A DNA stretch of 55,058 nt from Gemmatimonadota bacterium (lineage in GTDB: Bacteria > Gemmatimonadota > Gemmatimonadetes > Gemmatimonadales > Gemmatimonadaceae), in the NCBI GenBank assembly GCA_016874035.1, contig VGVM01000011.1:1-55058 (forward strand). Reading direction: 5' to 3'. The translations under genes were made by a program, and so were the position numbers. Shown one piece after another: positions 818 to 38,068 of this stretch. The notes beneath the pieces were generated by a model. That model made no database searches. It worked only from the letters and a program-made list of their open reading frames with translations, and was not told where the DNA came from. The stretch's first letter is position 1; every line of letters starts with the position of its first letter.

Positions 818-3391
818 ATGGTGCGTGCGGGACTGCTCATCGTCGGTACGGCAGCCGGAATCACGGCCCTCAGCGCCACGCGCGTTGGCGCCCGTGCTGC
901 ACTCCCCACCCGCGAGATCGTGCACGCCGGAGCGCCTACGGCGCGGCCGGCCGCGCGGCCGGCACCCGCCCATGAGACGCGAACCCCGACGCGCGCTACC
1001 GGCGCTCGCGGGATCGAGGTCTCGGCGCTCAACGCCGTCATGAAGACCTACTGCCAGACCTGCCACAACGATCGGCGCGTCGCGATGAAGAACGGCATCG
1101 CGGCGTCGTTCGACAAGTACGCGGTGGAAGGCGCGGCGCAGGACGCGCAGATGACGGAGCAGATCATCCGGAAGCTGCGGACGCAGATGATGCCGCCGCC
1201 GACGGCGCGCAAACCCGGTGGCGACACGCTCGTCGCGCTCGCCGAGACGCTGGAAGACCTGGTCGAGAAGGGCAACAAGATCAATCCCGGGATGCGCACG
1301 TTCCAGCGCCTCAACCGGCCGGAGTACGAGGCGGTGATCCGCGACCTGCTCGGCGTCGAGATCCATGCTGCGGACTTCCTCCCGCTCGACACCAAGAGCG
1401 CCAACTTCGACAACATCGCCGACGTGCAGTCGCTTTCGCCGACGCTGCTCGAGGCCTACCTCACCGCAGCCGCCGCGGTCGCGCGCATGGCCGTCGGTGA
1501 CCGGTCGGTGCGGTCGATCCCGGTGACATATCGCGTTTCACCGTTCGTCTCGCAGCACCCGTGGAACCATGTCGAGGGTGCGCCGTTCGGCACGCGCGGA
1601 GGCATCGTCGCGACGCACACGTTCCCTGCCGACGGGTGGTACCGGCTCCGCGCGAATATCGGCGGCGGCGTCGGGACGAAACTCGAGGACGTGGACCTGT
1701 CGGTCGAAGGCGAGCGCGTGGCGCTGCTCCAGTACGAGCGGGGGGTCGAGCGCACGTTCGCCTCGGCGGATGCGCCGCAGGGCGCGGACTACCTGTGGTC
1801 CGACCGGATGTTCATCAAGGCGGGCCAGCGCAAGATCTCGGCTGCGTTCGTGCGCCGCTCCGACGGGCCGTACGAGGACCTGATCCGGCCGCACGAGTGG
1901 TCCATGGCCAGCAACGGCAACGCGAGTGCCGGCATCACGGCGCCGCCGCACGTGGTGGAGCTCTCGGTGCTCGGCCCGGATTCCGTGACCGGAATCTCGG
2001 ACGATTCGAAGAGCCGCAAGATCATCTTCTCCTGCAAGCCGTCGAAGACGCTTTCGGAGCGCGCGTGCGCCTCGCAGATCATCACGCGGTTGGGCACCCG
2101 GGCGTACCGGAGGCCGCTGACCCCGAAGGACCGCGAAGGCCTGATGCGGTTCTACACCGAAGGCGCCAAGCAGGGTGGGTTCGACGAGGGCGTGCGCCTC
2201 GCGATCCAGGCGATGCTCGCGAGCCCGCACTTCGTGTTCCGCTTCGAGCGCCAGCCGGCGACCGCGACCGAAGGCAGCGACTACGCGCTCAGTGACCTCG
2301 ACCTGGCCACGCGCCTGTCGTTCTTCCTCTGGGGCAGCATCCCGGACGACCGCCTGCTCTCGCTCGCGACGGCCGGCCAGCTCAAGAATCGCGTGGTCAT
2401 GAACGCCGAAGTGAAGCGGATGCTCGCGGATCCGCGGTCGGAAGCGCTCGCGACCCGGTTTGCGGCCCAGTGGCTCCGGCTGCAGGACCTCGACAAGGTG
2501 AAGCCGGACGCGTTCTGGTTCCCGGATTTCGACCAGCAGGTTGCGGACGCGATGGTGAAGGAAACGAAGGCGTTCTTCACGTACATCGTTCGCAATGACC
2601 GACCCATCCTGGAGTTGTTCACGGCCGATTACACGTTCGTGAACGAAGCGCTGGCCAGGCACTACGGATTCCCGGACGTCGCCGGTACGAACTTCCGGAA
2701 GGTCTCGTATCCGGACAGCACACGGCGCGGACTCTTCGGCCACGGCAGCATCCTGGTCCAGACGTCGCTCGCGAACCGCACATCGCCCGTCCTCCGCGGG
2801 AAGTGGGTGATGGAAGTGCTGCTCAACGCACCGCCGCCGCCACCGCCTCCGGGCGTGCCGGACCTCGAGGAGACCGCGGACAGCAAGGACGGCAAGCCGC
2901 TTACGACGCGCGAGCGCATGGAGCTGCATCGCAAGAATCCGACGTGCAACGCGTGCCACCAGTACATGGACCCGATCGGCCTCGCGCTCGACAACTTCGA
3001 CGTGACGGCGCGCTGGCGCTATCGCGAGAACGGCATGGAGCTGGACACGCGTGGCCGCATGTACGACGGCGTCGCGGTCAATGCGCCCGGTGACCTGGTC
3101 AAGTCGCTGATGTCCCGGCCGCTGCCGCTGGCCCGGACGTTTACGGAGAACCTCATGGCATACGCCCTCGGGCGACGCATGGAGGATCCCGACCAGCCGA
3201 CGGTCCGCCGGATTACGCGCGAGGCCGGAGCCGCCGGGTACAAGTTCTCCGCGCTCGTGTCCGGTGTCGTCAACAGCCCGGCGTTCCGGACGAAGCGCGC
3301 CGATGTCGTGGCCGATTCGGATGCCGGTGCGTCTCCATCGCATAGTGCATTTGCTGGTTCGTCCGCAGGTCCGTCGCACAATCCCCGCTAA
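818..3391 (+). CDS. secreted c-type cytochrome-like protein, DUF1587-DUF1595-DUF1592-DUF1588-DUF1585 (cassette A)
   Basis: 857 residues. The start is the ATG preceded by GGAGG (804-808), 9 bases upstream, and gives an N-terminal signal peptide of about 26 residues. A haem c motif CQTCH lies at residues 79-83. The order is then DUF1587 (about 161-225, starting FQRLNRPEYEAVIRDLLG), DUF1595 (about 415-478), DUF1592 (about 488-615), DUF1588 (about 632-732) and DUF1585 (C-terminus). DUF1588 contains a seven-proline run and a second CNACH motif at residues 710-714. This is the domain order of the planctomycete/acidobacterial large cytochrome family usually paired with DUF1552 proteins. The molecular function is unknown; a periplasmic redox role is suggested by the CxxCH motifs. 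It heads a three-gene unit with the DUF1552 gene 32 bases downstream. A 829-residue paralogue is at 12690-15179. Confidence 0.9.
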   Translation: MVRAGLLIVGTAAGITALSATRVGARAALPTREIVHAGAPTARPAARPAPAHETRTPTRATGARGIEVSALNAVMKTYCQTCHNDRRVAMKNGIAASFDKYAVEGAAQDAQMTEQIIRKLRTQMMPPPTARKPGGDTLVALAETLEDLVEKGNKINPGMRTFQRLNRPEYEAVIRDLLGVEIHAADFLPLDTKSANFDNIADVQSLSPTLLEAYLTAAAAVARMAVGDRSVRSIPVTYRVSPFVSQHPWNHVEGAPFGTRGGIVATHTFPADGWYRLRANIGGGVGTKLEDVDLSVEGERVALLQYERGVERTFASADAPQGADYLWSDRMFIKAGQRKISAAFVRRSDGPYEDLIRPHEWSMASNGNASAGITAPPHVVELSVLGPDSVTGISDDSKSRKIIFSCKPSKTLSERACASQIITRLGTRAYRRPLTPKDREGLMRFYTEGAKQGGFDEGVRLAIQAMLASPHFVFRFERQPATATEGSDYALSDLDLATRLSFFLWGSIPDDRLLSLATAGQLKNRVVMNAEVKRMLADPRSEALATRFAAQWLRLQDLDKVKPDAFWFPDFDQQVADAMVKETKAFFTYIVRNDRPILELFTADYTFVNEALARHYGFPDVAGTNFRKVSYPDSTRRGLFGHGSILVQTSLANRTSPVLRGKWVMEVLLNAPPPPPPPGVPDLEETADSKDGKPLTTRERMELHRKNPTCNACHQYMDPIGLALDNFDVTARWRYRENGMELDTRGRMYDGVAVNAPGDLVKSLMSRPLPLARTFTENLMAYALGRRMEDPDQPTVRRITREAGAAGYKFSALVSGVVNSPAFRTKRADVVADSDAGASPSHSAFAGSSAGPSHNPR

Positions 3392-3423
3392 CGATTTCCC
3401 CCGTCCCCCGAGGATTCCCCCCG

Positions 3424-4812
3424 ATGCAATTCCTCACCCGTCAGGCCATGCACCGTCGCCGCTTCCTCCAGGGCATGGGTGCCACCGTCGCGCTGCCCTA
3501 CCTCGACGCGATGGTCCCCGCGCTCAGTCGCTTCGGCGGCACGGCTCAAGCTGACAAGACGCGCCTGCTCGCAATCGAGATGGTGCACGGCGCCGCCGGC
3601 TCCAACAACTGGGGCGGGAGCAAGTACCTCTGGGCTCCCGAGAAAGTCGGCAGCGGCTTTGTCCTCTCGGGTGACAACGCACTGACGCCGCTCGACTCAT
3701 GGCGCCAGTACCTCACGATCGTCAGCAACACCGACGTCCGGATGGCCGAGGCCTTCGAGGGACCGGAGATCGGTGGCGACCACTTCCGGTCGAGCGCCGT
3801 GTTCCTTACCCAGGCGCACCCGAAGCAAACGAACGGCTCCGACCTGTATGTCGGGACGTCCATGGACCAGATGGTGGCCCAGCACGTCTCGACCGACACC
3901 ACGCTGCCGTCCATGCAGCTCTGCATCGAGAATCTCGACCAGGCCGGCGGCTGCTACTACAACTACGCCTGCGCGTACACGGATACGATCAGCTGGGCGA
4001 ATCCGAACGAGCCGCTGCCCATGATTCGCAACCCGCGCATCGCGTTCGACCTGCTGTTCGGGGCGGGAAACAGCAAGGAAGACCGCGTGTCGCGCCGGGC
4101 CGCGAACAAGAGCATCCTCGACTGGATCGTCGGCGAAGTCAGCGGCCTCAAGCGCGAACTCGGCGCCGCGGACCGCGATCGCGTCGAGAAGTACCTCGAG
4201 GATATCCGTGAACTCGAGCGCCGCATCCAGGCCGTCGAGAAGCGGAACTCGAGCGGCGAAGCGCGCGAGATTCCGGAAGCGCCGATCGGCGTGCCGGACT
4301 CGTACGAAGAGCACGTCAAGCTGATGTTCGACATCCAGGTGCTGGCCTTCCAGAGCGATACGACCCGGGTCATCTCGTTCAAGACGGGTCGTGACGCCTC
4401 GAGCCGCGCGTACCCGGAGAGCGGTACGAACAAGGGCTTCCACCCGGCTTCGCACCACGGTGGCCGCGAGTCGGCGATCCTGGAATTCAACATGATCAAC
4501 AAGTACCACGTCGCGATGCTGCCGTACCTGCTCCAGAAGCTCAATGATTCGAAGGAAGGCGATTCGAACCTGCTCGAGAAGACGGCGATCATGTACGGCT
4601 CGCCGATGGCCGACGGCAACATCCACAACCACCGTCGCTGCCCGCTGATCCTGCTCGGTCACGGCAACGGCGCGCTGAAGGGCAACCTGCACCTCAAGGC
4701 TCCCGATGGCACGCCGATGGCGAACGCATTCCTGTCGCTCATGCACAACATGGGCATGACGGACGTGAAGCACTTCGGTGACAGCACCGGCGGATTCGCC
4801 CTCAACGGCTAA
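3424..4812 (+). CDS. DUF1552 family protein, Tat-exported (cassette A)
   Basis: 462 residues. The N-terminus has a twin-arginine signal, RRRFLQGMGATVALP starting at residue 11, which predicts folded export to the periplasm. The remainder is one DUF1552 domain with recognisable blocks, including FRSSAVFLTQAHPKQT, an acidic helical stretch near 230-270 (LEDIRELERRIQAVEKR) and a C-terminal MADGNIHNHRRCPLILLGH block rich in His. DUF1552 proteins are related to the DUF1501 group and are almost always encoded beside DUF1592-type cytochromes. No enzymatic activity is established. The start is the first ATG after GAGG at about 3410; an internal ATG at residue 9 would also keep the Tat signal. The ankyrin gene follows after 18 bases, so the three genes are probably cotranscribed. 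Its paralogue is 11258-12634. Confidence 0.9.
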   Translation: MQFLTRQAMHRRRFLQGMGATVALPYLDAMVPALSRFGGTAQADKTRLLAIEMVHGAAGSNNWGGSKYLWAPEKVGSGFVLSGDNALTPLDSWRQYLTIVSNTDVRMAEAFEGPEIGGDHFRSSAVFLTQAHPKQTNGSDLYVGTSMDQMVAQHVSTDTTLPSMQLCIENLDQAGGCYYNYACAYTDTISWANPNEPLPMIRNPRIAFDLLFGAGNSKEDRVSRRAANKSILDWIVGEVSGLKRELGAADRDRVEKYLEDIRELERRIQAVEKRNSSGEAREIPEAPIGVPDSYEEHVKLMFDIQVLAFQSDTTRVISFKTGRDASSRAYPESGTNKGFHPASHHGGRESAILEFNMINKYHVAMLPYLLQKLNDSKEGDSNLLEKTAIMYGSPMADGNIHNHRRCPLILLGHGNGALKGNLHLKAPDGTPMANAFLSLMHNMGMTDVKHFGDSTGGFALNG

Positions 4813-4830
4813 GGCCCGGAGCAACGAACC

Positions 4831-6870
4831 ATGATGAACCGGATGCGTTGGGGACTCGCGCTCGCGGTGCCGGCGTTGGTGGCCGCCGCCTCGATCGCGG
4901 ATTCGCCGGTGGCCGATGCGGCCATGAAGGGTGACATCGCGGCCGTACGGGCGCTCATCGCCAAGGGCGCGGATGTCAGCGCCCCTCGGGGCGACGGCAT
5001 GACCGCACTTCACTGGGCCGCCGAGCGCGGGGACAGCGGGCTCGCGGCGACGCTGATTCGGGCCAAGGCCAGCGTGAAGGCGACCACGCGCGTGGGCGGC
5101 TACACGCCGCTGCACCTCGCGGCGCGTGGCGGTCACAACGAGATCGTGATCGCGCTGCTCAAGGCGGGAGCGGATCCCAACAGCCAGACGGCGAGCGGGG
5201 CGACGGCGGCGCATCTGGCCGCCGGGTCCGGTGCGTCGGACGCGTTGAACGCGCTGGCCGACAAGGGTGTAGACCTCAACCTTCGCGAACGGGAGTGGGG
5301 GCAGACCCCGCTCATCTTCGCTGCGGCCGGCAATCGTTCGGAAGCGGTCAGGATCCTGATCAAGCGCGGCGTGGATGTGAACGCCAAGTCGCGCATGATC
5401 AACATCCAGGAAGAGACGGCGAAGGATCAGGCGGCTGCGCGCCGGCGCAACGAAGTGCTGCTTGGGTTCGACTCGGCGCGCACCCGGGACTCGCTCCGGG
5501 CCCTGGCAGGCGGCGCTGACGTCCCGATGCGCGCGGTCGGTGGCTACACGCTCCGCGAACTCGGCTTTGCGGCGCTCGTTGGCGACACAGTGGTGCCCGG
5601 TGCCGGCGGACGCGGCGCGCAGGGTCCGCAGCCCAAGGGGCCGTTCACGCCGGCACAGATGCAGGCGGCCATCGCGGCCGGCCGGCAGGTGCTGCAGAAC
5701 CAGTCGTCCGGTCGCGGTCCCGTCGTTGAGGTCGTGGACACGATCAACGGTGGCGTCGCCGGATTCGGGAACCAGGTCGGCGGCGTCGGCGGATTGACGG
5801 CGCTGCATCACGCGGTGCGGCAGGGCAACCTGTCCTCGGTACGCGCGCTCCTCGATGGCGGCGCCGATGTCAACATGCCGAATGACGTGGACAACACGAC
5901 GCCGCTGCTGCAGGCGACGATCAACGGCAACTTTGACGTGGCGATGGAGCTCATCAAGCGCGGGGCGAACCCGAACATCGCGTCCCGGACCGGCCTGGCG
6001 CCGCTCTATGCGACGATCAACACGCGCTGGGCGCCGAAGTCGCGCTATCCCCAGCCGCAGGCCGTCCAGATCCAGAAGACCACACACCTGGAACTGATGG
6101 AAGCGCTGCTAACGGCCGGTGCGAACCCGAATCTCCGGCTGGCGCAGCAGTTCTGGTACTTCGCCTACAACAACTGCGGCAACGCCAACTGCGGCCTCGA
6201 GAACCTCGAGGGCAGCAGCCCCTTCTGGCGCGCGACGTACTCGCTTGATGTGGACGCCATGCGCCTGCTCGTGAAGCATGGCGCCGATCCCAAGGTCCCG
6301 TCACAGCGGAACCCGGCGGCCGCGGGTCGCGGTGGGCGCGCGGGTGGCCGTGGAGGGCCCCCTGGCGCCGACTCGGCGACGTTGGCAGCGTTCGCGCGCG
6401 GCGGTGGCGGTGGTGGTGGCGCGGGCGGCCCCGGTGGCGCCAACGCACGGCGCCTTGACCCGGCGATCGACTCGGCCTCGCGCGCGGTTCCGGCCGGTAT
6501 CGGCGTGTACCCGGTGCATGCGGCGGCAGGTGTCGGGTACGGCAATGGGTTCGCCGGCAACGCCCACATTCACGCCGCGGGCGGTTGGATGCCGACGCTC
6601 AAGTACCTCGTCGAGGAGCTCGGCGCCGATGTCAACGCGCGCGATGCGGGCGGTTACACGCCGATGCACCACGCGGCGGCCCGCGGAGACAATGAGATGA
6701 TCCTGTATCTCGTCTCGAAGGGTGCGGACCCGAAGGCGGTCGCGCGCAACGGTATGACGACCTTGGACATGGCGAACGGCCCGGTGTCGCGCATCAGCCC
6801 GATCCCGGAGACCATGAAGCTGCTCGAGTCGCTCGGCGCGATCAACACGCACCGGTGTGCGTCCTGCTGA
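4831..6870 (+). CDS. secreted ankyrin-repeat protein with C-terminal CxSC tail (cassette A)
   Basis: 679 residues. A Sec-type signal peptide covers about residues 1-24. An N-terminal block of about five ankyrin repeats follows, with TALHWAAERGD, TPLHLAARGGH and TPLIFAAAGN cores. Next come an irregular linker (about 190-325), a second ankyrin block (about 326-490), a Gly/Arg-rich linker (about 495-545) and a final repeat pair. That last pair is preceded by the motif GVGYGNGFAGNAHIHA. The last seven residues are THRCASC. Ankyrin arrays are protein-binding scaffolds; with a signal peptide this one should act in the periplasm or outside. Its position directly after DUF1592 and DUF1552 genes, repeated in cassette B, suggests it binds one of those products. 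A hairpin terminator follows at 6899-6925. Confidence 0.87.
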   Translation: MMNRMRWGLALAVPALVAAASIADSPVADAAMKGDIAAVRALIAKGADVSAPRGDGMTALHWAAERGDSGLAATLIRAKASVKATTRVGGYTPLHLAARGGHNEIVIALLKAGADPNSQTASGATAAHLAAGSGASDALNALADKGVDLNLREREWGQTPLIFAAAGNRSEAVRILIKRGVDVNAKSRMINIQEETAKDQAAARRRNEVLLGFDSARTRDSLRALAGGADVPMRAVGGYTLRELGFAALVGDTVVPGAGGRGAQGPQPKGPFTPAQMQAAIAAGRQVLQNQSSGRGPVVEVVDTINGGVAGFGNQVGGVGGLTALHHAVRQGNLSSVRALLDGGADVNMPNDVDNTTPLLQATINGNFDVAMELIKRGANPNIASRTGLAPLYATINTRWAPKSRYPQPQAVQIQKTTHLELMEALLTAGANPNLRLAQQFWYFAYNNCGNANCGLENLEGSSPFWRATYSLDVDAMRLLVKHGADPKVPSQRNPAAAGRGGRAGGRGGPPGADSATLAAFARGGGGGGGAGGPGGANARRLDPAIDSASRAVPAGIGVYPVHAAAGVGYGNGFAGNAHIHAAGGWMPTLKYLVEELGADVNARDAGGYTPMHHAAARGDNEMILYLVSKGADPKAVARNGMTTLDMANGPVSRISPIPETMKLLESLGAINTHRCASC

Positions 6871-6898
6871 CGCACGGGACTCCTGATGGAGTGTGGAC

Positions 6899-6925
6899 GG
6901 CCGCCGGCGAACCCTGCCGGCGGCC
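6899..6925 (+). terminator. hairpin terminator after cassette A
   Basis: A perfect 10-bp stem, GGCCGCCGGC (6899-6908) with GCCGGCGGCC (6916-6925), has a 7-base loop and is followed by GTTCC. It has no long T tract, so it is a GC-rich terminator candidate. Its presence argues that the next gene starts at 6947 and not at the in-frame GTG at 6893. Confidence 0.6.
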
Positions 6926-6946
6926 GTTCCGCATGTGGCCTGTCCA

Positions 6947-8227
6947 ATGAGGGTCGCCGAGGCGCTGGACTTGCTCGAAGGCTTCGTGCGCGGGCCGGCC
7001 CGCCGCGAGGCCGTTGAGCGATTTGCCGCAGCCGGGGACGCGTCGGCCGCCCTCCATGCGCTCCGCGGCGCCATGGCGACACACCGGTGGCCCGGCGTGG
7101 GCGGCGCCGTGCGGTCGCTGCGATCGTTCGTTGACGGGTTGGACGCCCGAACGCGGGCCGAGGGCCTGCATGTCCTGTTTGGCTGGGATTTCGCCGCCCA
7201 GCGGCGGCCAGCCGACATCGCACCCGTGCTCCTCGTGGACTACTGCGTGCGCCTCGGTGTCCCGGAGGAGCGGCTACGCACCGTGCTGGCGACCCTGGTG
7301 GACCACTACTGCGTCGGGGTGGTGTCGGTGATTGCCGTGCGGGCGTGGGACGACGGTGATGCCGAGTCGGTGCTCGGGCGGCTGGACCAAGTCGTGGCGA
7401 CGATCGAAGGGGCGGACGGAAGCGGCCGGCCGGTGGTCGGGGACGTCGAGACGGCGATCCTGCTGGGAGTCGCCTACTTCCATCCGGAGGAGGACGGCTA
7501 CTTCGCGCTGCTCGGCCGTCTCGCGACCCTTGGCGCCGATCGTGCGCTGCGATTCGCGATCCCGTGCGCCACGGTGTTCAGCAGTCACCTCCGGTGGGGC
7601 ATGCGGTTCATGTATCGGAGCGATGCCGGGGCGCTCCGGGCGGACAATGGCATGGATTACCCGTGGGTGCTACGGGCGTTGCTCACGCTGGCGACGCGCT
7701 ACGATGCCGTCACAACCGCCGGCGGAGCAAGCGGCAGCCGCGAGCGCTTGCGGGCCGCGGAAGGGATCCTGGGGGCCCTGGCGCCGGACCCATGGGCCTT
7801 CACCGGGGCACCTTTATCGGCGCTCAAGCGGTTCGCGGCTGAGCACGAGCTGGCACGCTCACTGCTCGTTCGCCACCGCGACGCGCTGCTCGCGGACTTC
7901 GACGCGGTCGCGCCCACGACCAAGCGGTATTCGCCCATGGCGTTCGGGTGCAACTTCGTCTCCAATGCGTCGGTCGCGCTGGCGACCCTCGCTGCCACCG
8001 ATGACGACCGCTATCCGGCGCTCAGCGCGCTCTGGTCAGCGGCCGGGGCGAGCGACGCCCAGTGCGCCGACGCCGAGCGATTGGCGAAGCGCCTGATGCA
8101 GTATTCGACCGAGGATCCATCACGGCTCGGGGCGCATGGGGCGCCGCTGGTGGTGTACGACGTACGCGACGGCGTACACCACACGAACGTCGTACGCCGG
8201 GTGCTGGGCGAACTCCCGGCGTCGTAG
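6947..8227 (+). CDS. conserved-looking protein of unknown function
   Basis: 426 residues from the ATG at 6947; an in-frame GTG at 6893 is rejected because it lies upstream of the terminator hairpin. I do not recognise the family. The protein has no signal peptide and no clear membrane segment. It looks mostly alpha-helical, is rich in Ala, Leu, Arg and Asp, and has segments such as TAILLGVAYFHPEEDGYFAL and LRFAIPCATVFSSHLRWGMR. It sits between the two convergent DUF1592/DUF1552/ankyrin cassettes, reads in the direction of cassette A, and ends 11 bases before the converging EF-hand gene. Its codon composition fits its neighbours, so it is probably a real cytoplasmic gene. Whether it belongs functionally to cassette A is unknown. 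Confidence 0.65.
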   Translation: MRVAEALDLLEGFVRGPARREAVERFAAAGDASAALHALRGAMATHRWPGVGGAVRSLRSFVDGLDARTRAEGLHVLFGWDFAAQRRPADIAPVLLVDYCVRLGVPEERLRTVLATLVDHYCVGVVSVIAVRAWDDGDAESVLGRLDQVVATIEGADGSGRPVVGDVETAILLGVAYFHPEEDGYFALLGRLATLGADRALRFAIPCATVFSSHLRWGMRFMYRSDAGALRADNGMDYPWVLRALLTLATRYDAVTTAGGASGSRERLRAAEGILGALAPDPWAFTGAPLSALKRFAAEHELARSLLVRHRDALLADFDAVAPTTKRYSPMAFGCNFVSNASVALATLAATDDDRYPALSALWSAAGASDAQCADAERLAKRLMQYSTEDPSRLGAHGAPLVVYDVRDGVHHTNVVRRVLGELPAS

Positions 8228-8238
8228 GGTCGGCGGTG

Positions 8239-9321
8239 CTAGCGGCCGCCCGCGGCGGCCAGCATCAGCTTCACATGGTCGTCGGCCTGCTGGAGGCCGC
8301 CTTCATTCTGCTCCCAGGTGATCCGGCCGTCGCTGTTCGCATCCGCGCCGGCCACCAGTTGGTTCGCGAGCGACGCCATCTGGTTCACGAGGGACGCGGC
8401 CTCGGTCGCCGACGTCGCGGCCTGCACCTTCTGCGCGAGCGCGATCAGTTGATCCGCGCGCGCCACCGTGTTCCGCGCCGACGTGGCGATGTGCGCGGAA
8501 TGGGTCACGATGTTCGGCGTGGCGCCCTGCGCGCCCGCGGCAAGCTCGATGTGGGCGGCGACCGCGGCGGCCGCCTTCTTGACGCCATAGCCCAGGCCGG
8601 GGCCCATCGGGACGAGCGACGGGTCCAGCGCGTGCAGCACGTGCGCGGCGTGGGTCTTCATGTAATCCAGGTTGGTCGGCTGGCGGCCGGCAAGCTGCGC
8701 GTGCTGGGCGGCGGTGTTCGCCTCGGCGATCGCGGTCGGAAGCAACCCGCGCCCCATGGGTGTGTCGCCGAAGGCCAGCACGACGTGGCCGATATGTACA
8801 CCGGCGGGCCCCGGCGGCATCGTCGGCACTGCCGCAGCGGCGACCGGGACCGGGGCGCCGGCAAGCGGCGAACCTGTGAGTGCGATGACGATGCTGTCGT
8901 ACGAGGTCCGGGCGGCGTTGTTCGTCGCGATCACGAACGTGCGGCGGCTGTATTCCTGTTCGGTCAGTCCGCCGGCCTTGATGACTTCGCCGGTCCGCTT
9001 GGCGAGCAGTTCGCGCAGCGCTTCCTGCATTTCGCGCGTCTTGTTGCGCTGCATCGCAAGCTGAAGGTTGACCGAGTCCCGGAGCTTCGAGATGCCGACC
9101 TCGACCTTCACCAGTGCGGTGATTTCCGGGAGGGCCAAGCTCGCCGTACTCGGCGCTGCGCCCTGTGCAGAACCCTGGGCCGCACCCTGCGCAGCACTTT
9201 GCGCGCGCGCGGGATTCGCCGCCGCGGCCGCGACGCCTGATGCGGCGACAAGCTGGAGGACGAAGCGCGGGAGCGTGGCGGCGGGAGCGAAGGATCGCGT
9301 CTGGGTCAGCATGACATGCAT
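8239..9321 (-). CDS. secreted protein with EF-hand-like calcium loop, coupled to ankyrin gene B
   Basis: 360 residues. The start ATG at 9321 overlaps the last 16 bases of the ankyrin gene, so translation is probably coupled; an ATG three codons later (9312) is an alternative. The N-terminus is a signal peptide ending near PARAQ, followed by a short Ala/Gln/Gly repeat (AQGAAQGSAQGAA). The middle has an amphipathic helix region (ALRELLAKRTGEVIKAGGLT) and conserved-looking blocks such as GDTPMGRGLLPTAIAEAN. Near the C-terminus, DANSDGRITWEQ matches the 12-residue EF-hand loop (D-x-N-x-D-G-x-I-x-x-x-E). I do not recognise the overall family. It is the fourth gene of cassette B; cassette A has no counterpart. 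A role in calcium-dependent binding outside the cytoplasm is inference. Confidence 0.7.
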   Translation of the reverse strand: MHVMLTQTRSFAPAATLPRFVLQLVAASGVAAAAANPARAQSAAQGAAQGSAQGAAPSTASLALPEITALVKVEVGISKLRDSVNLQLAMQRNKTREMQEALRELLAKRTGEVIKAGGLTEQEYSRRTFVIATNNAARTSYDSIVIALTGSPLAGAPVPVAAAAVPTMPPGPAGVHIGHVVLAFGDTPMGRGLLPTAIAEANTAAQHAQLAGRQPTNLDYMKTHAAHVLHALDPSLVPMGPGLGYGVKKAAAAVAAHIELAAGAQGATPNIVTHSAHIATSARNTVARADQLIALAQKVQAATSATEAASLVNQMASLANQLVAGADANSDGRITWEQNEGGLQQADDHVKLMLAAAGGR

Positions 9322-11261
9322 TTGTGGTTGTTTTTCGCGCCGAGCGACTCGAGGAGCGCTACGGTTTCGTGGTAGGGAGAAATGCGCTGGACGGGTCCGT
9401 TGGCCATATCCACCGTGGTCTGGCCGCTGCGCGCGACGGCCTTCACGTCGGCGCCCTTGGATACGAGATAGAGGATCAAAGTGTTGTCGCCGCGCGCCGC
9501 CGCGAAGTGTAGCGCGGTGTGACCGTTCGCATCGCGGGCGTTCACGTCCATGCGCAGTTCCTCGACCAGGAACTTCATCGTCGAGAGCCAGGCATCCGGG
9601 GCGTGACGATGGTCGTTTGCGGCGAAGCCCTGGCCGTAGCCGACGCCCGCTGCCGCGACGACCGCCGGGATCCCGACACCGCCTTCGGGTACCGGCGGGA
9701 GGCCAGACGGGTCGCGGCGAATCGGGACATCAGCGCCGCCTGCCATCGCAGCGGCCGCGCCGCCCCTGCCGCCGCGCGCCGGCGGCTTGATGGTTGAGAT
9801 CGCGGGGTCAGCGCCGTACTTGAGCAGCAGCTTCATCGCTGCGACATCCGTGGCGTAGGCCGCACGCCAGAACGGCGTCGCGCCTCGGAAGTCCACGCGG
9901 AGGTTGTCCCGGTTGTACGTCGTGTACCACAAACTCCGTTTCAGGCGCGCGTTCGGGTCCGCCTTCGCCTTGAGCAGGACCTCCATGATCTCGAGGTACG
10001 ACGTGCGCTGCTGGAGATTGAACGTGGGTTGCGGCGTGCGCGACGTTGGCGCCCACTCCTTGTTGATCACTGCGTAGAGCGGGGTGTTGCCCGGTTCGCT
10101 CGCGCGGTTCGGGTCAGCGCCGCGTTCGACCAGCAGCTTGGCGATGTCGTAGTGGCCGTTAATCGCGGCCATGATGAGCGGCGTGGTCTTGTCGGACCCG
10201 GCGGGCTGGTTGATGTCCGCACCGGCGTCGAGCAACGCGCGGGCAGCGTCCACCTGCCCGTCGCGAACCGCCAGCAGCAACGCGGTGAGTCCTCCCTGAT
10301 AGCCGACCGCCTCCGTGTACGCGGGTGGATCGTCGTCACCGCCGCCGCCACTGGTGTTGGCCGCGGCGGCGACTCGCGCTGCTTCCTCCGCTGAATCGGC
10401 GGCGTTCATCGGTGCGCCGGTCCCCCGGCGCTCAAGGGCGAGGGCGGCCCGCACGGCCGTCTGGACCTGCGTCGGTGATGGTCGCCAGCCCACGACCGTG
10501 TCGGCCCCCTGCGCGCGGCGGGCGCGGCCGAGTTCGAGGTTGCGGACCTGCCGGGTCGCGCGATCCTGCGCGGTGAGCTGCATCAGGTCCACGACCTTCG
10601 CGGTCGCGGCGACGTTGGCGCCCCTCGCAACCAGTACGCGGATCGCGTCCGCGTTCCCGCGCGAAGCCGCGAACATCAGCGGCGTGTGGTTCCACGCCGG
10701 CTCGGTGGCGTTGGCGTCCGCGCCGCGGTCGAGCAGCGCGGTCACGGCCCGCGCGTCGCCGGCCAGGGCCGCGAGGTGCAGGGCGGTCACGCCCGTGGCT
10801 GTCACGGCTCTCGCGTCCGCGCCCGCGCCGAGCAGCGCGCGTACGGCGCCGGCCGCGCCGGCCTCGCTTGCGAGGTGCAGCGGAGTCAGCGCGCCGATCC
10901 GCGTCACGGGTGTGGTGCGGGCCTTCGCGCGGAGCAGCGCCGTCACCATCGTGGAGTCTCCGCGCCGCGCAGCCCAGTGGAGCGCGGTCATCCCATCACC
11001 CTGCGCCGCGTTCACATCCGCACCGGCCGCGATCAGGCGACGAACCTCAGCCGCATCATTGCGCGCCGCGGCGTCGGCCAATGGAGCCGACGGCGGCGTC
11101 GGTGCGACTGCCACGGTGTGCGCGCCGGCTTGCGCAGGTGCTTGCACCGGCGTCTGCGCCGCCGGCAGGGCGAACGCCGGAGCCACCACGGCAAGGGACG
11201 CCATCGCGGCGACGAGCGGGACGCGCCGCATGGGATTGGTCGTGCGCGCCGGCGCCCTCAT
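9306..11261 (-). CDS. secreted ankyrin-repeat protein with C-terminal CxSC tail (cassette B)
   Basis: 651 residues, paralogous over its whole length to the ankyrin protein at 4831-6870. It has a signal peptide (about 1-32), an N-terminal ankyrin block (TALHWAARRGD, TPLHLASEAGA, TALHLAALAGD, TPLMFAASRGN), a linker and a second block with GGLTALLLAVRDGQ. A Gly-rich linker then precedes the motif GVGYGQGFAANDHRHA and a final repeat pair. The last seven residues are NHKCMSC, matching the THRCASC end of the other copy. The ATG overlaps the TGA of the upstream DUF1552 gene (ATGA, 11258-11261), so the genes are translationally coupled, and its 3' end overlaps the EF-hand gene. A periplasmic scaffold role is inferred from the repeats and signal peptide. 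Confidence 0.87.
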   Translation of the reverse strand: MRAPARTTNPMRRVPLVAAMASLAVVAPAFALPAAQTPVQAPAQAGAHTVAVAPTPPSAPLADAAARNDAAEVRRLIAAGADVNAAQGDGMTALHWAARRGDSTMVTALLRAKARTTPVTRIGALTPLHLASEAGAAGAVRALLGAGADARAVTATGVTALHLAALAGDARAVTALLDRGADANATEPAWNHTPLMFAASRGNADAIRVLVARGANVAATAKVVDLMQLTAQDRATRQVRNLELGRARRAQGADTVVGWRPSPTQVQTAVRAALALERRGTGAPMNAADSAEEAARVAAAANTSGGGGDDDPPAYTEAVGYQGGLTALLLAVRDGQVDAARALLDAGADINQPAGSDKTTPLIMAAINGHYDIAKLLVERGADPNRASEPGNTPLYAVINKEWAPTSRTPQPTFNLQQRTSYLEIMEVLLKAKADPNARLKRSLWYTTYNRDNLRVDFRGATPFWRAAYATDVAAMKLLLKYGADPAISTIKPPARGGRGGAAAAMAGGADVPIRRDPSGLPPVPEGGVGIPAVVAAAGVGYGQGFAANDHRHAPDAWLSTMKFLVEELRMDVNARDANGHTALHFAAARGDNTLILYLVSKGADVKAVARSGQTTVDMANGPVQRISPYHETVALLESLGAKNNHKCMSC

Positions 11262-12634
11262 AGCGCAAACGCCCCGGTGCTGTCGCCGAATCGCGTCAAG
11301 TCGTCATGGCCGAGCTTGTGCATGACACTGAGGAGCGCATTGGCCATCGGCGTCCCGTCGGGCGCGCGCAGGTGGGTGTTGCCGCGCAGCTGTCCGTTCG
11401 CGCCGCCGAGCAGGATCAGCGGGCAGCGGCGATGGTTGTGGACGTTTGAGTCGGCCATCGGCGAGCCGTACACGATCATCGTCTTGTCGAGCAGCGACGT
11501 GCCGGCGTCCGTGGTCTCCTTGAGCCGCTGCAGGAGGTACGGCAGCATCGAGACGTGGTACTTGTTGATCTCGTAGAACTCCGTCACGCGCTTCGGGCTG
11601 TTGCCGTGGTGCGACGCGTTATGGAACCCGGTTGACACGCCGCTCTCGGGGAAGACGCGCCCGGAGGCGTCGCGTCCGGTCTTCAGCGAGAAGATGCGGG
11701 TGACGTCCGCCTGGAAGGCGAGCACCTGCAAGTCGAACATCAGCTTGATGTGATCTTCGTACGAATCCGGCACGCCGGCCGGCGCGCCCGCCAGCTCGCG
11801 CGCCTCGCCCGTCGAGTTCCGGGCCTCGATGCGCTGGATGCGCCGTTCGATCTCGCGCACATGCTCGAGGTACTGGTCCATCCGCTCGCGATCGCCGGGA
11901 CCGAGCTCGCGCTTGAGTTCATTGACGCGCGACACGATGAAGTCGAGGATGCTGCCCGTGCTGCGTCGGCGGGCGGCGCGTTCCGCGGCGGTGCCACCGG
12001 CGCCGAACAGCTGGTCGAAGGCGACGCGCGGGTCGCGGATCATCGGAAGCGGCTCGGTCGGCGAGGCCCAGCTGATCGTATCGGTATACACGCAGGAGTA
12101 GCCGTAGGCGCAGCCACCGGCGCGGTCCACCGGCTCGATGCAGAGCTGCATGGACGGGATCGGCGACTCGTCCCCGAAGCGCTGCGCGTAGAGCTGGTCG
12201 AACGACGTGCCGACGTAGATGTCCGAGCTCTCGGTCTGCGTCGGGTGCGCCTGGGTCAGGAAGACGGCACTCGAGCGGAAATGGTCGCCACCGATTTCCT
12301 CGGACTTGTACGCCTCGGCCATCCGCACGTCGGTGTTGCTGACGATCGTGAGGTACTTCCGCCAAGGTTCGAGCGGGAGCAGGGCCGAGGGCGTGAGGTC
12401 AAACCCGCTGCCGGTGATCGCCGGCGCCCAGAAATGCTGCGTGGCACCGTAGGGGCTGCTGCCGGCGGCGCCGTGGACCGCCTCGATGCAGATCAGCCGC
12501 GTGGGATCCGCCGCGGCGGCGAATCGGGACAGCCCGCGCGCGGGGATCATCGCGTCGAGCATCGGGAGCGCGACGGTCGCGCCCATGCCTTGCAGGAAGG
12601 TGCGCCGCGGGAGGTGCTTGCCGGTAATGAGCAT
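11258..12634 (-). CDS. DUF1552 family protein, Tat-exported (cassette B)
   Basis: 458 residues. I place the start at the ATG at 12634, which gives a Tat signal (PRRTFLQGMGATVALP from residue 9) aligned with the cassette A copy; the open frame extends further upstream but that part is low-complexity shadow sequence. Shared blocks with the paralogue include FRSSAVFLTQAHPTQT, a helical stretch EHVREIERRIQRIEARN and a C-terminal MADSNVHNHRRCPLILLGG. The DUF1592 gene ends 55 bases upstream, and the ankyrin ATG overlaps this stop. No biochemical activity is known for the family. Tat export suggests the protein folds, perhaps with a cofactor, before crossing the membrane. Confidence 0.9.
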   Translation of the reverse strand: MLITGKHLPRRTFLQGMGATVALPMLDAMIPARGLSRFAAAADPTRLICIEAVHGAAGSSPYGATQHFWAPAITGSGFDLTPSALLPLEPWRKYLTIVSNTDVRMAEAYKSEEIGGDHFRSSAVFLTQAHPTQTESSDIYVGTSFDQLYAQRFGDESPIPSMQLCIEPVDRAGGCAYGYSCVYTDTISWASPTEPLPMIRDPRVAFDQLFGAGGTAAERAARRRSTGSILDFIVSRVNELKRELGPGDRERMDQYLEHVREIERRIQRIEARNSTGEARELAGAPAGVPDSYEDHIKLMFDLQVLAFQADVTRIFSLKTGRDASGRVFPESGVSTGFHNASHHGNSPKRVTEFYEINKYHVSMLPYLLQRLKETTDAGTSLLDKTMIVYGSPMADSNVHNHRRCPLILLGGANGQLRGNTHLRAPDGTPMANALLSVMHKLGHDDLTRFGDSTGAFAL

Positions 12635-12689
12635 GGTGAGTGGGGGGCTCGGAGCTCGGGTCAGCGTGCGGGGAAGTGGCGCGAAGGGA

Positions 12690-15179
12690 TCAGCGGGATG
12701 GTTCAGCGGCCGACTCGGCCGCCTGTTGCCGGAACGCAGGACTGTTGACCACGCCCAGGACGTAGGCCGACATCGCGTGGTGGCGCGACGCGGCGTTCCG
12801 GACGATGGTGCGAATGCTCGCCATGTCGAATGCCTCGACGCGGCGGCCGGTACCGTAGGCGAAGAGGTTCTGCGCGAACGTGCGGTACAGCGTCTCGCGG
12901 TAGCGCTCGAAGGCGGTGCGGAGTTCGGCGGCCGTTGACACCGGCCGTCCGTCCCAGAGTTCGCCGCGCGAGTCGATCTGCATCCCGTTGTCACGCAAGC
13001 GTCGTCGGCCGGTCACGTCGTAGTGTTCGAGCGCCAGGCCGATCGGGTCCATCATCTTGTGGCAGGACTGGCAGTTCGGACTCTTGCGGTGCAGTTCCAT
13101 CCGCTCGCGCACGGTGAGCAGGCGTCCGTCCTCGTTGTCGGCCGTGGCCTCGAGGTCCGGGACGCCGGGCGGTGGCGGCGGCGGCGGGCTGGCCAGCATG
13201 ACCTCCATCACCCACTTGCCGCGCTCGACCGCCGACGTGCGCGTCGCCTGCGAGGTCAACGTGAGGATGCTCGCGTGGGCGAGCACGCCACGGCGATCGG
13301 GGTCGGTCAGCGCGACCCGCCGGAAGGCGGGGCCGGCGACGCCCGGGATGCCGTAGTGCGCCGCGAGCCGGTCGTTGACGAACGTGTAGTCCGCGTCGAA
13401 AAGCGCCGAGACGCTGCGGTCGTTCCGCACGATATCCTCGACGAACACCTCGGTTTCGCGCCGCATCGCGGTGCGTAGCTGCTCGTCAAAGTCCGGGTAC
13501 TGCCGCACGTCCGGCTGGACCTTGTCGAGGTCGCTGAGGCGCAGCCATTGCGATACGAAGCGTGTGGAGAGCGTCGCGGCTCGCGGGTCGCGCAACATCC
13601 GCCGCACCTGTTCCTCCAACACGGCCGGCGTGGACAGGCGTCCGCGCGCGGCGAGCGCGACAAGCGTCGAATCGGGCGGTGCAGACCAGATGAAGAATGC
13701 CAGGCGGGAGGCGAGGTCCGAGTCGCGGATCCGCATCGCCGGCGCGGCGGTCGCGGACGCGGCAGCGGCTTCCGCCCGCTCGAAGCGGAACACGAAATCC
13801 GGGCTCGCGAGGATCGCCTCGAGCGCCGTTCGCACGCCGACCTCGAAACCCGCGTCGGCGGCCGCACGGTCGTAGATCGCGAGCAGCGGATCAATGTCGC
13901 GTGAATCCAACGTCCGGCGGTACGCCCGCGTCGCGAGGCGCGCCACGATTCCGCGCGCACATTCGCGGCCGGACGCGCCGGAGGTCGCCGTGCACGTGAA
14001 TACGCGGCGACGCAGCGGGGTGTCCGATACGCCCGTCGTCCCGTGGGGCCCCGCAATCACCAGGTCACGGAGGTGCGGGACGGACGAAAACCCGTAGGCG
14101 GTGGCGTTCGACGTACTCGCCAGCGACCAACGAAGCGGCGAGATCAGGTCCTCCGCGACGTCCTGCGAAGCCGGCGGGATGAACGCTGCGCTGACGCGGT
14201 GCGGGCCCGCTGTCACGCGCACCGGATCGGTGGCGAGCGACACGCCATTGGGGTCGGACGCCGTCATCCAGCGATCCATGTCGAGGACCGCAACGCGGAC
14301 GCCGTCAATCGAGATCTCGATTCGCTCGCCGCGCGCGAGCCCGCCGGCAAATGCGCCGGTGGTCTCGTGGAAGAACAGCGTGCGGAAGGCGTAAAGCCCG
14401 TCGGCCGGGAACGTGTGGATGACGGAGAGTCCGCCGCGCGTCCCGATTGGCGCGCCTTCCACGTGCGCGGTCTGGGAGGCGGTGCGCGGGACGGAGTACG
14501 TCGCTTCGGAAGCGGTGGCCGTCGCGTCGCCGATCACGAGGCGGCTGATCGCCCCCGCGGCTCGGAGGTATCCATCGAGCAACGTGGGGGACAGCGACTG
14601 GACGTCCGCGATGTTGTCGAAGTTCTCGCTCTTGGTATCGGGCGGCAGCCAGAGCCCGGCATCCACGTCGAGCCCGAGGATATCGTGGATCGCCGCCGCG
14701 TATTCCGCCCGGTTGAGCCGCTGGAACGTCCGGCGGCCGGGGTTTGGCCGCGCCCGCGCCTCGGCATCCATCTGCTGTTCCAGTGTCGTGAGCAACGCGG
14801 CCAGCGTGTCGCCGCCCGGCTTCGTCGAGCCCGGCGGGGGCATCATCCCGAGTTGCAGCTTCGCGATGACTTTCTCAGATGCCTCGGGAGACTTGGCGGC
14901 GGCGCCGACATCGAAGTCATCCAGCGAGAGGTTGCCGCGTCGCACCGAGTTGTTGTGGCAGCGGGCGCAGGAACGCCTGACGACGTCGTTGAGTGCGGCG
15001 GTCGAGACTTCGCTGGTGAAAGCGCCGCCGGGACCCGGTTGTCGCGCGTGCCCGATCGTCACCGGCGGCGCTGGTGACGCGTGCTGGGGCAGTGGGGCGG
15101 GCGTTCGCCGCGCGACGGCATCGGTCGCGCCGAGGCCAGCGAGGAGCAGGACAATTGTCGTCACGGCCGTCGTGCGCAT
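12690..15179 (-). CDS. secreted c-type cytochrome-like protein, DUF1587-DUF1595-DUF1592-DUF1588-DUF1585 (cassette B)
   Basis: 829 residues. The start is the ATG at 15179, preceded by GGGAGAG and giving a good Sec signal peptide (RTTAVTTIVLLLAGLGATDA); longer in-frame starts lack both. The haem motif CARCH is at residues 71-75. The domain order matches the 818-3391 protein: DUF1587 (FQRLNRAEYAAAIHDILG), DUF1595 (RLATRAYRRTLDSRD), DUF1592 (LASRLAFFIWSAPPDSTL), DUF1588 with a seven-proline run and CQSCH, then DUF1585. It is the first gene of cassette B, followed by DUF1552, ankyrin and EF-hand genes on the same strand. It differs clearly from the cassette A copy, so the duplication is not recent. 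A periplasmic haem or redox function is suggested, not shown. Confidence 0.9.
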   Translation of the reverse strand: MRTTAVTTIVLLLAGLGATDAVARRTPAPLPQHASPAPPVTIGHARQPGPGGAFTSEVSTAALNDVVRRSCARCHNNSVRRGNLSLDDFDVGAAAKSPEASEKVIAKLQLGMMPPPGSTKPGGDTLAALLTTLEQQMDAEARARPNPGRRTFQRLNRAEYAAAIHDILGLDVDAGLWLPPDTKSENFDNIADVQSLSPTLLDGYLRAAGAISRLVIGDATATASEATYSVPRTASQTAHVEGAPIGTRGGLSVIHTFPADGLYAFRTLFFHETTGAFAGGLARGERIEISIDGVRVAVLDMDRWMTASDPNGVSLATDPVRVTAGPHRVSAAFIPPASQDVAEDLISPLRWSLASTSNATAYGFSSVPHLRDLVIAGPHGTTGVSDTPLRRRVFTCTATSGASGRECARGIVARLATRAYRRTLDSRDIDPLLAIYDRAAADAGFEVGVRTALEAILASPDFVFRFERAEAAAASATAAPAMRIRDSDLASRLAFFIWSAPPDSTLVALAARGRLSTPAVLEEQVRRMLRDPRAATLSTRFVSQWLRLSDLDKVQPDVRQYPDFDEQLRTAMRRETEVFVEDIVRNDRSVSALFDADYTFVNDRLAAHYGIPGVAGPAFRRVALTDPDRRGVLAHASILTLTSQATRTSAVERGKWVMEVMLASPPPPPPPGVPDLEATADNEDGRLLTVRERMELHRKSPNCQSCHKMMDPIGLALEHYDVTGRRRLRDNGMQIDSRGELWDGRPVSTAAELRTAFERYRETLYRTFAQNLFAYGTGRRVEAFDMASIRTIVRNAASRHHAMSAYVLGVVNSPAFRQQAAESAAEPSR

Positions 15180-27437: not shown

Positions 27438-29042
27438 TCAGAGCGCACTGGGTGCGCCGACGGCGGCAGAGCCGGTGTGGCGAGAGGGCGTTTCATGAGC
27501 GTGCGTACGCCCGTGGTCGCCGTGATGATCATGCGCGGCATCGTCAACACGCATACGAAGCTCGCCGATGAGTGCGCGGGGACCGCGTCGCAGCAGCTGC
27601 GAGGCGAGCAGCACGAGTAACAGCGCGATGGCGGCGTGTTGGAGCACGCTTGGGCGGTTCGCAACCACTGCGGTCGCGGAAGACGGGCCGATGCCAAGCG
27701 GCAGCCCGCCGAGGAGCAGACCGAGCGAGACGGCCGTGGCCGCTACCACCGCGACAAACACGACGGCGAGACGGCGGCCATAGAGACGGGCGACGAGTCC
27801 GAACGTGGTGACGTTCGCCGCCGGGCCCGTGATCAGGAACGCGATGCCGGCGCCCGGCGAGACGCCGCCGGCTATGAGGGTAGCGATCAGCGGTGTGGCC
27901 GCGGAGGCGCACACGTAGGCCGGGAGGCCGAGCAGGCTGAGCGCGACGACCTGCACGAAGACCGGGAGCGACGCCAGCCACGCCGCGGCTGGCGTGGGTC
28001 CCAACCACGCCGCGGCGAGCACACCGAGCGCGATCCACGGCGCGGTGTGACCGAACATCTCCTCGAAGCCCACGTGCCACGCGTGGCGCACGCGGGCCGG
28101 CCATGGTGTCGCGACCGCGGCCTCGGGCAGTGGCGCTGGGTAGTGACGTGCTGCGCCAAGGCGTCGCCGCACGAGGGCGTCCATCACCAAGGCCACCACC
28201 AGGGCCACCGCAATCGCCGCTGCGATGCGCGCGACGGCGACGTCCGTGCCGAGTGCAGGGAAGCTCAGCAGGATCGCGTCGAGACCGAGCTCCGGGCCCG
28301 CGATCAGGAACGCCATCGCGCCGGCGGTGGATCCGCCTTGCTGCGCGATGCGGCGGAACGGCGCGACGACCGAGCAGGAGCACAGCGGCAACGGGAGCCC
28401 GACGACCAGCCCTTTGGAGGCCTGTACCAACGGCGTGCCCCGCGCGAACCAGCGGAACAGATCCGATGGTGCGAACGCCGCGAGCACGCCGGTGATCACG
28501 TACGCGGCGAGCAGGGCCGGCGCGATCTCCACCAACAGGGCCAGGCTGCGAGAGGCCATCGCGCGAGTCGGCTCCGGGAGGGCACTCTGCGCGAACCACA
28601 GGCTGAGACCGGCGAGCCCCAGCAGCGCCCCGAGACCCTCCGCCCGCCTCGAGTATGCGGCGGACGCCTCGGCCGATCGCCTGCGCCGCAATTCCTGTGC
28701 AATCGCGAAGACGCCGACGACACTGGCTATCGAGACGACCGTGGCGTCGAGCCGCATCAGGCCAGACCACGACACAGCGAGGCAGCCGAGGAGCAGCAGC
28801 GTGCCCCAGGGTCCACTCCACCCCAAGAGACCGGCGTGCCACCGCGTCATGGGCGACAGTCGACGCGCCAGCACCGTTGCAAAAGCGATGGCGCCGACCG
28901 GCCACCAGGTACCGGTGCCGGCGAGCGCGAGGGCAGCGGGGACGAGCAGAAACATCACGATCGCGATCGCGATCGCAAGCGCGGCGCCGAAGAACGCCGC
29001 GGGGAATATCGCCGCGGGCGGCATCCGCAGGCCGTCGTTCAT
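27438..29042 (-). CDS. two-module permease of the YraQ/DUF318 (ArsP-like, SO_0444-type) family, probable Cu/Zn transporter
   Basis: 534 residues with about twelve or more membrane segments arranged as two halves. The first half carries LPLPLCSCSVVAPFRR, the CxC metal-contact motif of this permease family. The second half has LPAYVCASAATPLIATLI and the repeated GPAANVTTFG block. The C-terminus is a cytoplasmic His/Asp-rich tail (DDAAHDHHGDHGRTHAHE), a likely metal-sensing or buffering segment. Related proteins are annotated as arsenical or Cu/Zn efflux transporters. It is the last gene of a four-gene minus-strand operon (COG0523 GTPase, WD40, 2Fe-2S protein, permease), with its start 4 bases after the preceding stop. 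Zinc is the most likely substrate from context; the direction of transport is not shown. Confidence 0.8.
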   Translation of the reverse strand: MNDGLRMPPAAIFPAAFFGAALAIAIAIVMFLLVPAALALAGTGTWWPVGAIAFATVLARRLSPMTRWHAGLLGWSGPWGTLLLLGCLAVSWSGLMRLDATVVSIASVVGVFAIAQELRRRRSAEASAAYSRRAEGLGALLGLAGLSLWFAQSALPEPTRAMASRSLALLVEIAPALLAAYVITGVLAAFAPSDLFRWFARGTPLVQASKGLVVGLPLPLCSCSVVAPFRRIAQQGGSTAGAMAFLIAGPELGLDAILLSFPALGTDVAVARIAAAIAVALVVALVMDALVRRRLGAARHYPAPLPEAAVATPWPARVRHAWHVGFEEMFGHTAPWIALGVLAAAWLGPTPAAAWLASLPVFVQVVALSLLGLPAYVCASAATPLIATLIAGGVSPGAGIAFLITGPAANVTTFGLVARLYGRRLAVVFVAVVAATAVSLGLLLGGLPLGIGPSSATAVVANRPSVLQHAAIALLLVLLASQLLRRGPRALIGELRMRVDDAAHDHHGDHGRTHAHETPSRHTGSAAVGAPSAL

Positions 29043-29046
29043 CGCA

Positions 29047-29412
29047 TCATCGGGGTTTGGGTTTCCCGGGACGCGTCCCGCTCACTTGATGCATGCCTTG
29101 CGGTGTCGTGATGAAGCTCACGTGCTCGTGCATCGGGGTCCCTTCGCGAAGATGATCGCGCACGATCCGCCGTGCGACCTCGGGCGTGACCTCTCGATAC
29201 CAGACGCCATCCGGTTGGACCACGACCGTGCACCCATCGTCGCAGCGCCCCATGCACCGCGTGCGCGCCGTGTGGACGAGCGGATCGAGTCCCGCGTCCT
29301 TGAGCGCGCGGCGGAGCGTGAGCGTGACCGCATCCGCGCCGCGCTCACTGCACGAGTCGCCATTGCAGAGCAGGACGAGCCGAGTCGTGCCGCTGAGGTC
29401 CCAGGTCGTCAT
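29047..29412 (-). CDS. thioredoxin-like (2Fe-2S) ferredoxin domain protein
   Basis: 121 residues. Cysteines C16 and C21 (LLCNGDSC) and C53 and C57 (CMGRCDDGC, with an extra C61) have the spacing of thioredoxin-fold [2Fe-2S] ferredoxins such as the NuoE/shethna type. It has no signal peptide. It lies between the WD40 protein and the metal permease in one operon. A second protein of the same kind (33745-34140) ends the cobalt-transport operon, so this domain accompanies metal transporters twice here. A role in sensing or reducing metal or thiol state is inference. Confidence 0.75.
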   Translation of the reverse strand: MTTWDLSGTTRLVLLCNGDSCSERGADAVTLTLRRALKDAGLDPLVHTARTRCMGRCDDGCTVVVQPDGVWYREVTPEVARRIVRDHLREGTPMHEHVSFITTPQGMHQVSGTRPGKPKPR

Positions 29413-29440
29413 GCGAGCGCGCCAGCGCGCTGAGGGAGGT

Positions 29441-33711: not shown

Positions 33712-33744
33712 TGAACGGCTCTCGGCGCGGCAGGTCGCAGGTGG

Positions 33745-38066: not shown

Positions 38067-38068
38067 CG

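Follow-up and report, generated by a model that had tools for sequence, protein, structure and literature searches.

Genes for DUF1592/PSCyt3 and DUF1552 proteins stand side by side in Planctomycetota and Verrucomicrobia, in many copies, with haem motifs and carbohydrate-binding parts and without an assigned function (PMC5615132); in Verrucomicrobia, CBMs are also fused to PSCyt proteins. Proteins of these two families abound in the genomes of planctomycetes, Verrucomicrobia, acidobacteria and gemmatimonads. In Cellvibrio, Cbp2D is needed for growth on insoluble cellulose, as seen upon cbp2D deletion, and a direct role in cutting is suspected by the authors of that study (PMC12542752). In vitro, the Cbp2D X183 domain acts as a reductant of an AA10 LPMO (PMC8981238), whereas the X183 domains of Teredinibacter did not reduce their LPMO, and isolated Teredinibacter X122 jelly rolls showed no significant binding to any tested plant polysaccharide (PMC10916295). 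Ankyrin proteins that serve haem enzymes have also been described: Cj1386 of Campylobacter is a haem-binding protein that supplies KatA with haem, and AnkB-type proteins of Pseudomonas and Xanthomonas promote catalase activity.

The DUF1592 and DUF1552 families are already known, with no function assigned to them in the literature, and what is new here is the trio that they form with an ankyrin protein. The initial annotation of this locus knew of no experimental function for the trio. We likewise did not find the trio, its CxxC tail, the DUF1552 subfamily signature or the copy-number tracking described in the literature; genetics does exist for Cbp2D, which has the same cytochrome/DUF1587/cytochrome arrangement (PMC12542752, PMC8981238).

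We analysed a window of 55,058 nucleotides, one entire contig of a 3.08 Mb genome (191 contigs, 99.5% complete) whose relatives recovered by search are Gemmatimonadota. The genome contains exactly two DUF1552 and two DUF1592 genes, all inside the window. They belong to cassette A (818-6870, forward strand) and cassette B (15179-9306, reverse strand), which are convergent, and Pfam matches, reading frames and strands agree with the annotated order in both: a protein with DUF1587/1595/1592/1588/1585 and weak cytochrome matches, then DUF1552 (E=3e-79 and 1e-84 in the two cassettes), then ankyrin repeats. The annotated Sec and Tat export signals were both found.

Cassette A consists of D1592A (818..3391), a secreted, predicted di-haem protein identified by Pfam and its reading frame, D1552A (3424..4812), a DUF1552 (HXXSHH) protein with the twin-arginine N-terminus MQFLTRQAMHRRRFLQ, and ANKA (4831..6870), a secreted ankyrin protein ending in HRCASC, whose CxxC codons lie at 6856..6867. 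The intergenic gaps are 32, 18 and 22 bp. Cassette B consists, on the reverse strand, of D1592B (12690..15179), also secreted and a predicted di-haem protein, D1552B (11258..12634), with the Tat signal PRRTFLQ, and ANKB (9306..11261), which is secreted and ends in HKCMSC, with its CxxC codons at 9309..9320. Coupled translation in cassette B was borne out, as the ANKB start overlaps the D1552B stop as ATGA.

The cassettes do face each other, but not around a single gene as had been thought: U444 (6893..8227, forward strand, 444 aa, without Pfam match) lies downstream of cassette A and EF360 (8239..9321, reverse strand) downstream of cassette B. EF360 is a secreted-looking protein of 360 aa with one EF-hand-like loop (DANSDGRITWEQ). 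Because ANKB overlaps the EF360 gene by 16 bp, cassette B looks like a four-gene operon including EF360. At 9306-9321 the EF360 start codon overlaps the codons of the ANKB CxxC tail, and the tail and the next gene constrain each other. Elsewhere in the window, positions 27441-38273 hold a metal-related cluster with an ArsP-type permease, two CobW GTPases, a WD40 protein, CbiM, CbiQ, an ABC ATPase and a PepSY-TM protein.

Co-occurrence of the three genes in this order, counted across genomes, supports the annotated conservation of the trio and shows ankyrin genes to be enriched beside DUF1592 and DUF1552. All 18 DUF1552 copies in 40 relatives stand in trio order. One of these genomes, G002, keeps the convergent A/B pair as in the window, in agreement with the claim that both copies are maintained; in G010 the two cassettes lie on two short contigs with breaks between the EF360 and U444 genes, as would fit an identical layout. 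Scanning named genomes with an alignment of DUF1552 yielded 74 loci, and the linkage count covered 113 DUF1552 genes after removal of duplicates. DUF1592 lies directly upstream of every DUF1552 gene with upstream room (112/112), and an ankyrin family gene lies directly downstream of 99 of the 102 with downstream room, on the same strand and mostly within less than 200 bases. The three DUF1552 genes without a direct ankyrin neighbour are members of 1592-1552-1592-1552-ANK arrays. Such arrays, with one ankyrin gene for two DUF pairs, were seen at L063, L065, L071 and L070, and tandem arrays of whole trios are frequent. At L035 (7164-13079), one stop-free frame joins the DUF1592 and ankyrin reading frames, with DUF1552 between them in another frame; GC-rich DNA has probably produced this by chance, or else the assembly is in error.

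Since the scan of named genomes keeps the closest relatives, we searched separately an even sample of 121 Gemmatimonadota genomes, with the ankyrin family counted at E<=1e-25. DUF1552 is present in 47 of these genomes and the ankyrin family in exactly the same 47 (Fisher P about 1e-34, phylogeny ignored). Copy totals are 211 for DUF1552 and 204 for the ankyrin family, correlated at r=0.96, and both reach a maximum of 12 per genome. Gain, loss and amplification run in parallel across 17 genera, and chance is thus untenable. We regard it as almost certain that the three genes make up a single functional unit.

For 89 full trios, FastTree trees built from each of the three proteins give the same picture. 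Pairwise tree correlations are 0.86, 0.75 and 0.78, against a maximum of 0.125 in 999 permutations, and only 4-6 among 41-51 strongly supported splits are in conflict. In all three trees cassette A groups with L032, the minus-strand trio of L039, L024, L027, L082, L035 and L034, while cassette B groups with L038, the plus-strand trio of L039 and L023, next to other Gemmatimonadaceae. As each cassette has its own relatives, A and B appear to belong to separate old clades that split as units before the genus arose; transfer between lineages is a possible alternative. The largely concordant trees uphold the view that the three genes duplicated together and that the split is old.

We then consider the proteins themselves. 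In both DUF1592 proteins all five domains (DUF1587, DUF1595, DUF1592, DUF1588 and DUF1585) score above the Pfam cut-offs. Two CxxCH motifs and one Met are kept in 99-100% of the 89 trios; Met113, His697 and a Cys pair are conserved in essentially all of them, and the haem residues (both CxxCH and Met113) in every distant homologue compared. In D1592B the first haem site is C71-H75 (14955..14969), with M113 as the distal Met candidate, and the second is C703-H707 (13059..13073), accompanied by the invariant H697. From its motifs, the protein is predicted to be a di-haem c-type cytochrome, and it shares the domain order cytochrome/DUF1587/CxxCH domain with Cbp2D. In the structural model of D1592B (pLDDT 77), residues 219-381 (14037..14525) form a beta-jelly-roll whose best structural matches are CBM36, CBM6 and CBM35 modules (Z 9.0-9.4), practically tied between xylanase J (Z 9.4, rmsd 3.5 over 110 aligned residues), CBM36 (9.3) and CBM6 (9.2). 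The model suggests a CBM6/35-like domain for putative carbohydrate docking. This jelly roll fills the Foldseek and VIA match lists, so the protein fold is named in part. Searches of solved structures with the DUF1592 sequence returned chance matches only and no match to solved X183 domains.

The family assignment of both DUF1552 copies includes a PF07586 match and the HxxSHH motif (H338-H343 in D1552B, 11606..11623), and 83 of 89 trio DUF1552 proteins carry a twin-arginine motif. All 50 listed structural matches of the D1552B model (pTM 0.82, mean pLDDT 70) belong to the alkaline-phosphatase superfamily, including ENPP, sulfatases and phosphoethanolamine transferases, with Z 12.1-13.8; the best is ENPP6 (Z 13.8, rmsd 4.1 over 250 residues), and the best Foldseek E is 8.8e-4. 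DUF1552 thus has, as judged from the model, an alkaline-phosphatase-superfamily core fold; sequence searches of solved structures with DUF1552 gave chance matches only. The initial annotation had placed haem or catalysis in these two proteins together. Predicted haem attachment falls to the DUF1592 protein, with its two invariant CxxCH motifs, and DUF1552 takes the phosphatase-like fold.

Near-universal DUF1552 residues include H118, D146, D231, D248, H338, H342 and H399 (D1552B numbering, here and below). Because the likely active-site loops 104-141 and 170-196 have low confidence in the model, metal ligands are not placeable in it. Going by its distance from the L-T motif that sulfatases and ENPPs carry, H118 would presumably occupy the nucleophile position, a placement made by comparing motifs rather than by computed alignment. 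The ankyrin-linked subfamily is marked by the signature E51/H54/D102/C165. E51 and H54 stand at the end of the first core strand, at a position that is mostly Tyr/Asn elsewhere and at which the alkaline phosphatase superfamily holds a metal-binding Asp, suggesting a putative role in metal binding.

All 89 trio ankyrin proteins have C-x-x-C at the C-terminus, followed by no more than one residue and often in the form HxCxxC, and in 61 of the 89 these cysteines are the only two in the aligned part. Two loops and a MANGPxxR...LG stretch before the tail are also conserved. We considered a pairing of the tail with Cys404 of DUF1552 and rejected it as not strict, given that 76% of the CxxC trios have Cys404 and the others lack it. 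NCBIfam matches of the ankyrin proteins to Legionella effectors were set aside, as they score far below cut-offs and reflect generic repeats.

Outside Gemmatimonadota, the expectation of ankyrin genes beside DUF1592-DUF1552 pairs holds in part: the association is strict in Gemmatimonadota and part of Acidobacteriota, and partial or absent in more distant pairs. Among 119 Acidobacteriota genomes, DUF1552 occurs in 17 and the ankyrin family in 5 of those, and in none of the 119 does the ankyrin family occur without DUF1552. A shorter ankyrin gene that lacks the CxxC tail lies beside the pair on a Novosphingobium plasmid (L120) and at L124, L127, L131, L132 and L141; at L122, L123 and L125 it is divergent. 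No ankyrin gene lies beside the pair at L126, L128, L129, L130, L133, L134 and L139. Since some partners outside the core clade have no CxxC, the tail is not essential to every version of the ankyrin protein. On a Planctomyces plasmid (L121, 8428-9081), DUF1080 follows the pair in the place of the ankyrin gene.

In the flanks of 23 trios, which hold 126 genes, creatininase (6/126) and amidase (4/126) were the most frequent and no CAZyme or glycoside-hydrolase enrichment was found, and we rejected on this basis a carbohydrate-utilisation locus around the trio. U444 follows the ankyrin gene of cassette A in the window and in three related genomes; the only places where it was found are A-type cassettes in a small number of genomes from the same genus, with 48-50% identity. 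The EF360 family, which has no Pfam match, adjoins trios of many Gemmatimonadota and often lies downstream of the ankyrin gene in convergent orientation (in the window at 8239-9321; L082, 13837-15075; L066, L060, L068 and L100). Its 'matches' of 40-80 bits antisense to DUF1592 were judged to be frame artefacts.

The gene content, conservation and co-inheritance of the trio, the folds of DUF1552 and in part of DUF1592, the haem motifs and the CxxC tail are our starting points for a mechanism. We propose, with a probability of about 0.4 for the mechanism in full, a secreted, glycan-binding redox-metalloenzyme complex organised by the ankyrin protein. Each cassette would encode one extracytoplasmic three-protein module acting on glycan-like material. 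The DUF1592 protein would dock on carbohydrate through its jelly roll and pass electrons through its two c-type haems. The DUF1552 protein, exported folded by the Tat system, would be a divergent alkaline-phosphatase-superfamily metalloenzyme with a His-rich presumed metal site, to which the ankyrin-linked form would add acidic and His residues where the superfamily binds its first metal. The ankyrin protein would be a dedicated assembly partner, and its tail may be a redox or metal-binding clasp working with the other two. We infer here the formation of the complex, the glycan substrate, the role of the CxxC and the chemistry. The genetics of Cbp2D and its X183 haem domain, DUF1080 beside the Planctomyces pair, the CBM-PSCyt fusions of Verrucomicrobia and PQQ dehydrogenases beside two Acidobacteriota pairs count for this mechanism; the flanks of the trios without CAZyme enrichment, the non-binding X122 jelly rolls (PMC10916295), the low-confidence DUF1552 loops and the ankyrin partners outside the core clade that have no CxxC count against it.

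The ankyrin protein might instead serve chiefly to mature the cytochrome or to supply it with haem, in the manner of AnkB and Cj1386, and not be a structural scaffold, a reading that we consider improbable though the strongest of the alternatives. Ankyrin genes beside haem-enzyme genes are a known arrangement (AnkB, Cj1386-KatA), the trio ankyrin gene adjoins a c-type cytochrome gene, and its tail is often HxCxxC. However, attaching c-type haem is the task of the general cytochrome c maturation machinery, DUF1592-DUF1552 pairs without an ankyrin gene keep both CxxCH sites, and the copy number of the ankyrin gene follows that of DUF1552 almost one to one, a match that a shared factor would not require.

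Somewhat less probable still is that the DUF1592 protein accepts electrons from periplasmic PQQ dehydrogenases, while DUF1552 and the ankyrin protein have accessory roles. Genes for PQQ dehydrogenases (PF01011, E about 1e-175) flank the distant Acidobacteriota pairs L133 (6387-9449 and 13362-15485) and L134 (7241-9277), one lies about 2 kb downstream of a trio in genome G131, and they occur in 45/47 trio genomes as against 53/74 others, in a frequency test that ignores phylogeny. On the other hand, the gene families that recur in the flanks of 23 trios do not include PQQ genes, and the trio genomes G016 and G060 have no PQQ dehydrogenase at E<=1e-30. That the conserved order merely reflects a shared neighbourhood of independently acting secreted genes is very unlikely in view of the near-perfect linkage, gaps of tens of bases, the ATGA overlap, joint tandem duplication, near 1:1 copies up to 12 per genome and the matching trees. 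A trio cytochrome feeding LPMOs, as proposed for Cbp2D from its reduction of an AA10 LPMO (PMC8981238) and the growth defect of the deletion (PMC12542752), is refuted for AA10 in Gemmatimonadota and hardly credible, as PF03067 occurs in 0/121 genomes, including all 47 with the trio, and the X183 domains from Teredinibacter failed to reduce their LPMO (PMC10916295). Because AA10 LPMOs are absent from the 121 genomes, the electron partner in Gemmatimonadota is something other than an AA10 LPMO, and PQQ dehydrogenases are a candidate partner of the trio cytochrome.

Returning to the ankyrin-organised complex, the case for conservation is overall strong and that for the mechanism weak but testable. 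More speculatively, and with a low probability of being right, the trio could represent an unrecognised class of secreted oxidoreductase-metalloenzyme machinery whose targets are glycans or comparable polymers and which does its work without an LPMO. Some Gemmatimonadota would then have expanded it to about a dozen versions, each specific for a substrate, and the CxxC tail would take part in catalysis or electron transfer. For two abundant families, one phylum now offers a near-obligatory third protein with an invariant two-cysteine tail and a DUF1552 subfamily separable by its residues. The testable handles gained are three proteins, one tail, two haems and one His cluster. The same kind of redox protein is suspected of a new cellulose-cutting mechanism in Cellvibrio, and the idea of an LPMO donor (AA10) is now removed for Gemmatimonadota.

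Finally, we compared the trio with the known systems. Cbp2D of Cellvibrio japonicus and TERTU_2913 of Teredinibacter turnerae resemble the predicted make-up of the DUF1592 protein in having a c-type cytochrome domain (X183 in their case) and a second CxxCH domain (X132 in their case), with DUF1587 in Cbp2D and a jelly roll in TERTU_2913; they differ in that no ankyrin or DUF1552 partner is described for either (PMC8981238, PMC10916295), and Cbp2D has CBM2, FN3 and YceI-like parts and the partner Cbp2E. In AnkB-KatB and Cj1386-KatA, an ankyrin gene (with a periplasmic product in the case of AnkB) lies beside the gene of the haem protein that it serves, as one lies beside a predicted cytochrome gene in the trio. 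The haem proteins of these pairs, however, are catalases and not c-type cytochromes, and there is no third DUF1552 gene; Pfam found no catalase gene in either cassette. DUF1552 shares with the alkaline phosphatase/sulfatase/ENPP superfamily the overall fold, an HxxxH motif and other conserved His and Asp residues, but a His would take the usual Ser/Thr/Cys nucleophile position, judging by motif spacing. The pairs of Planctomycetota and Verrucomicrobia have no reported ankyrin partner (PMC5615132), and the Planctomyces pair seen in this analysis has DUF1080, whereas the DUF1552 subfamily of Gemmatimonadota has its own residues, E51/H54/D102/C165.
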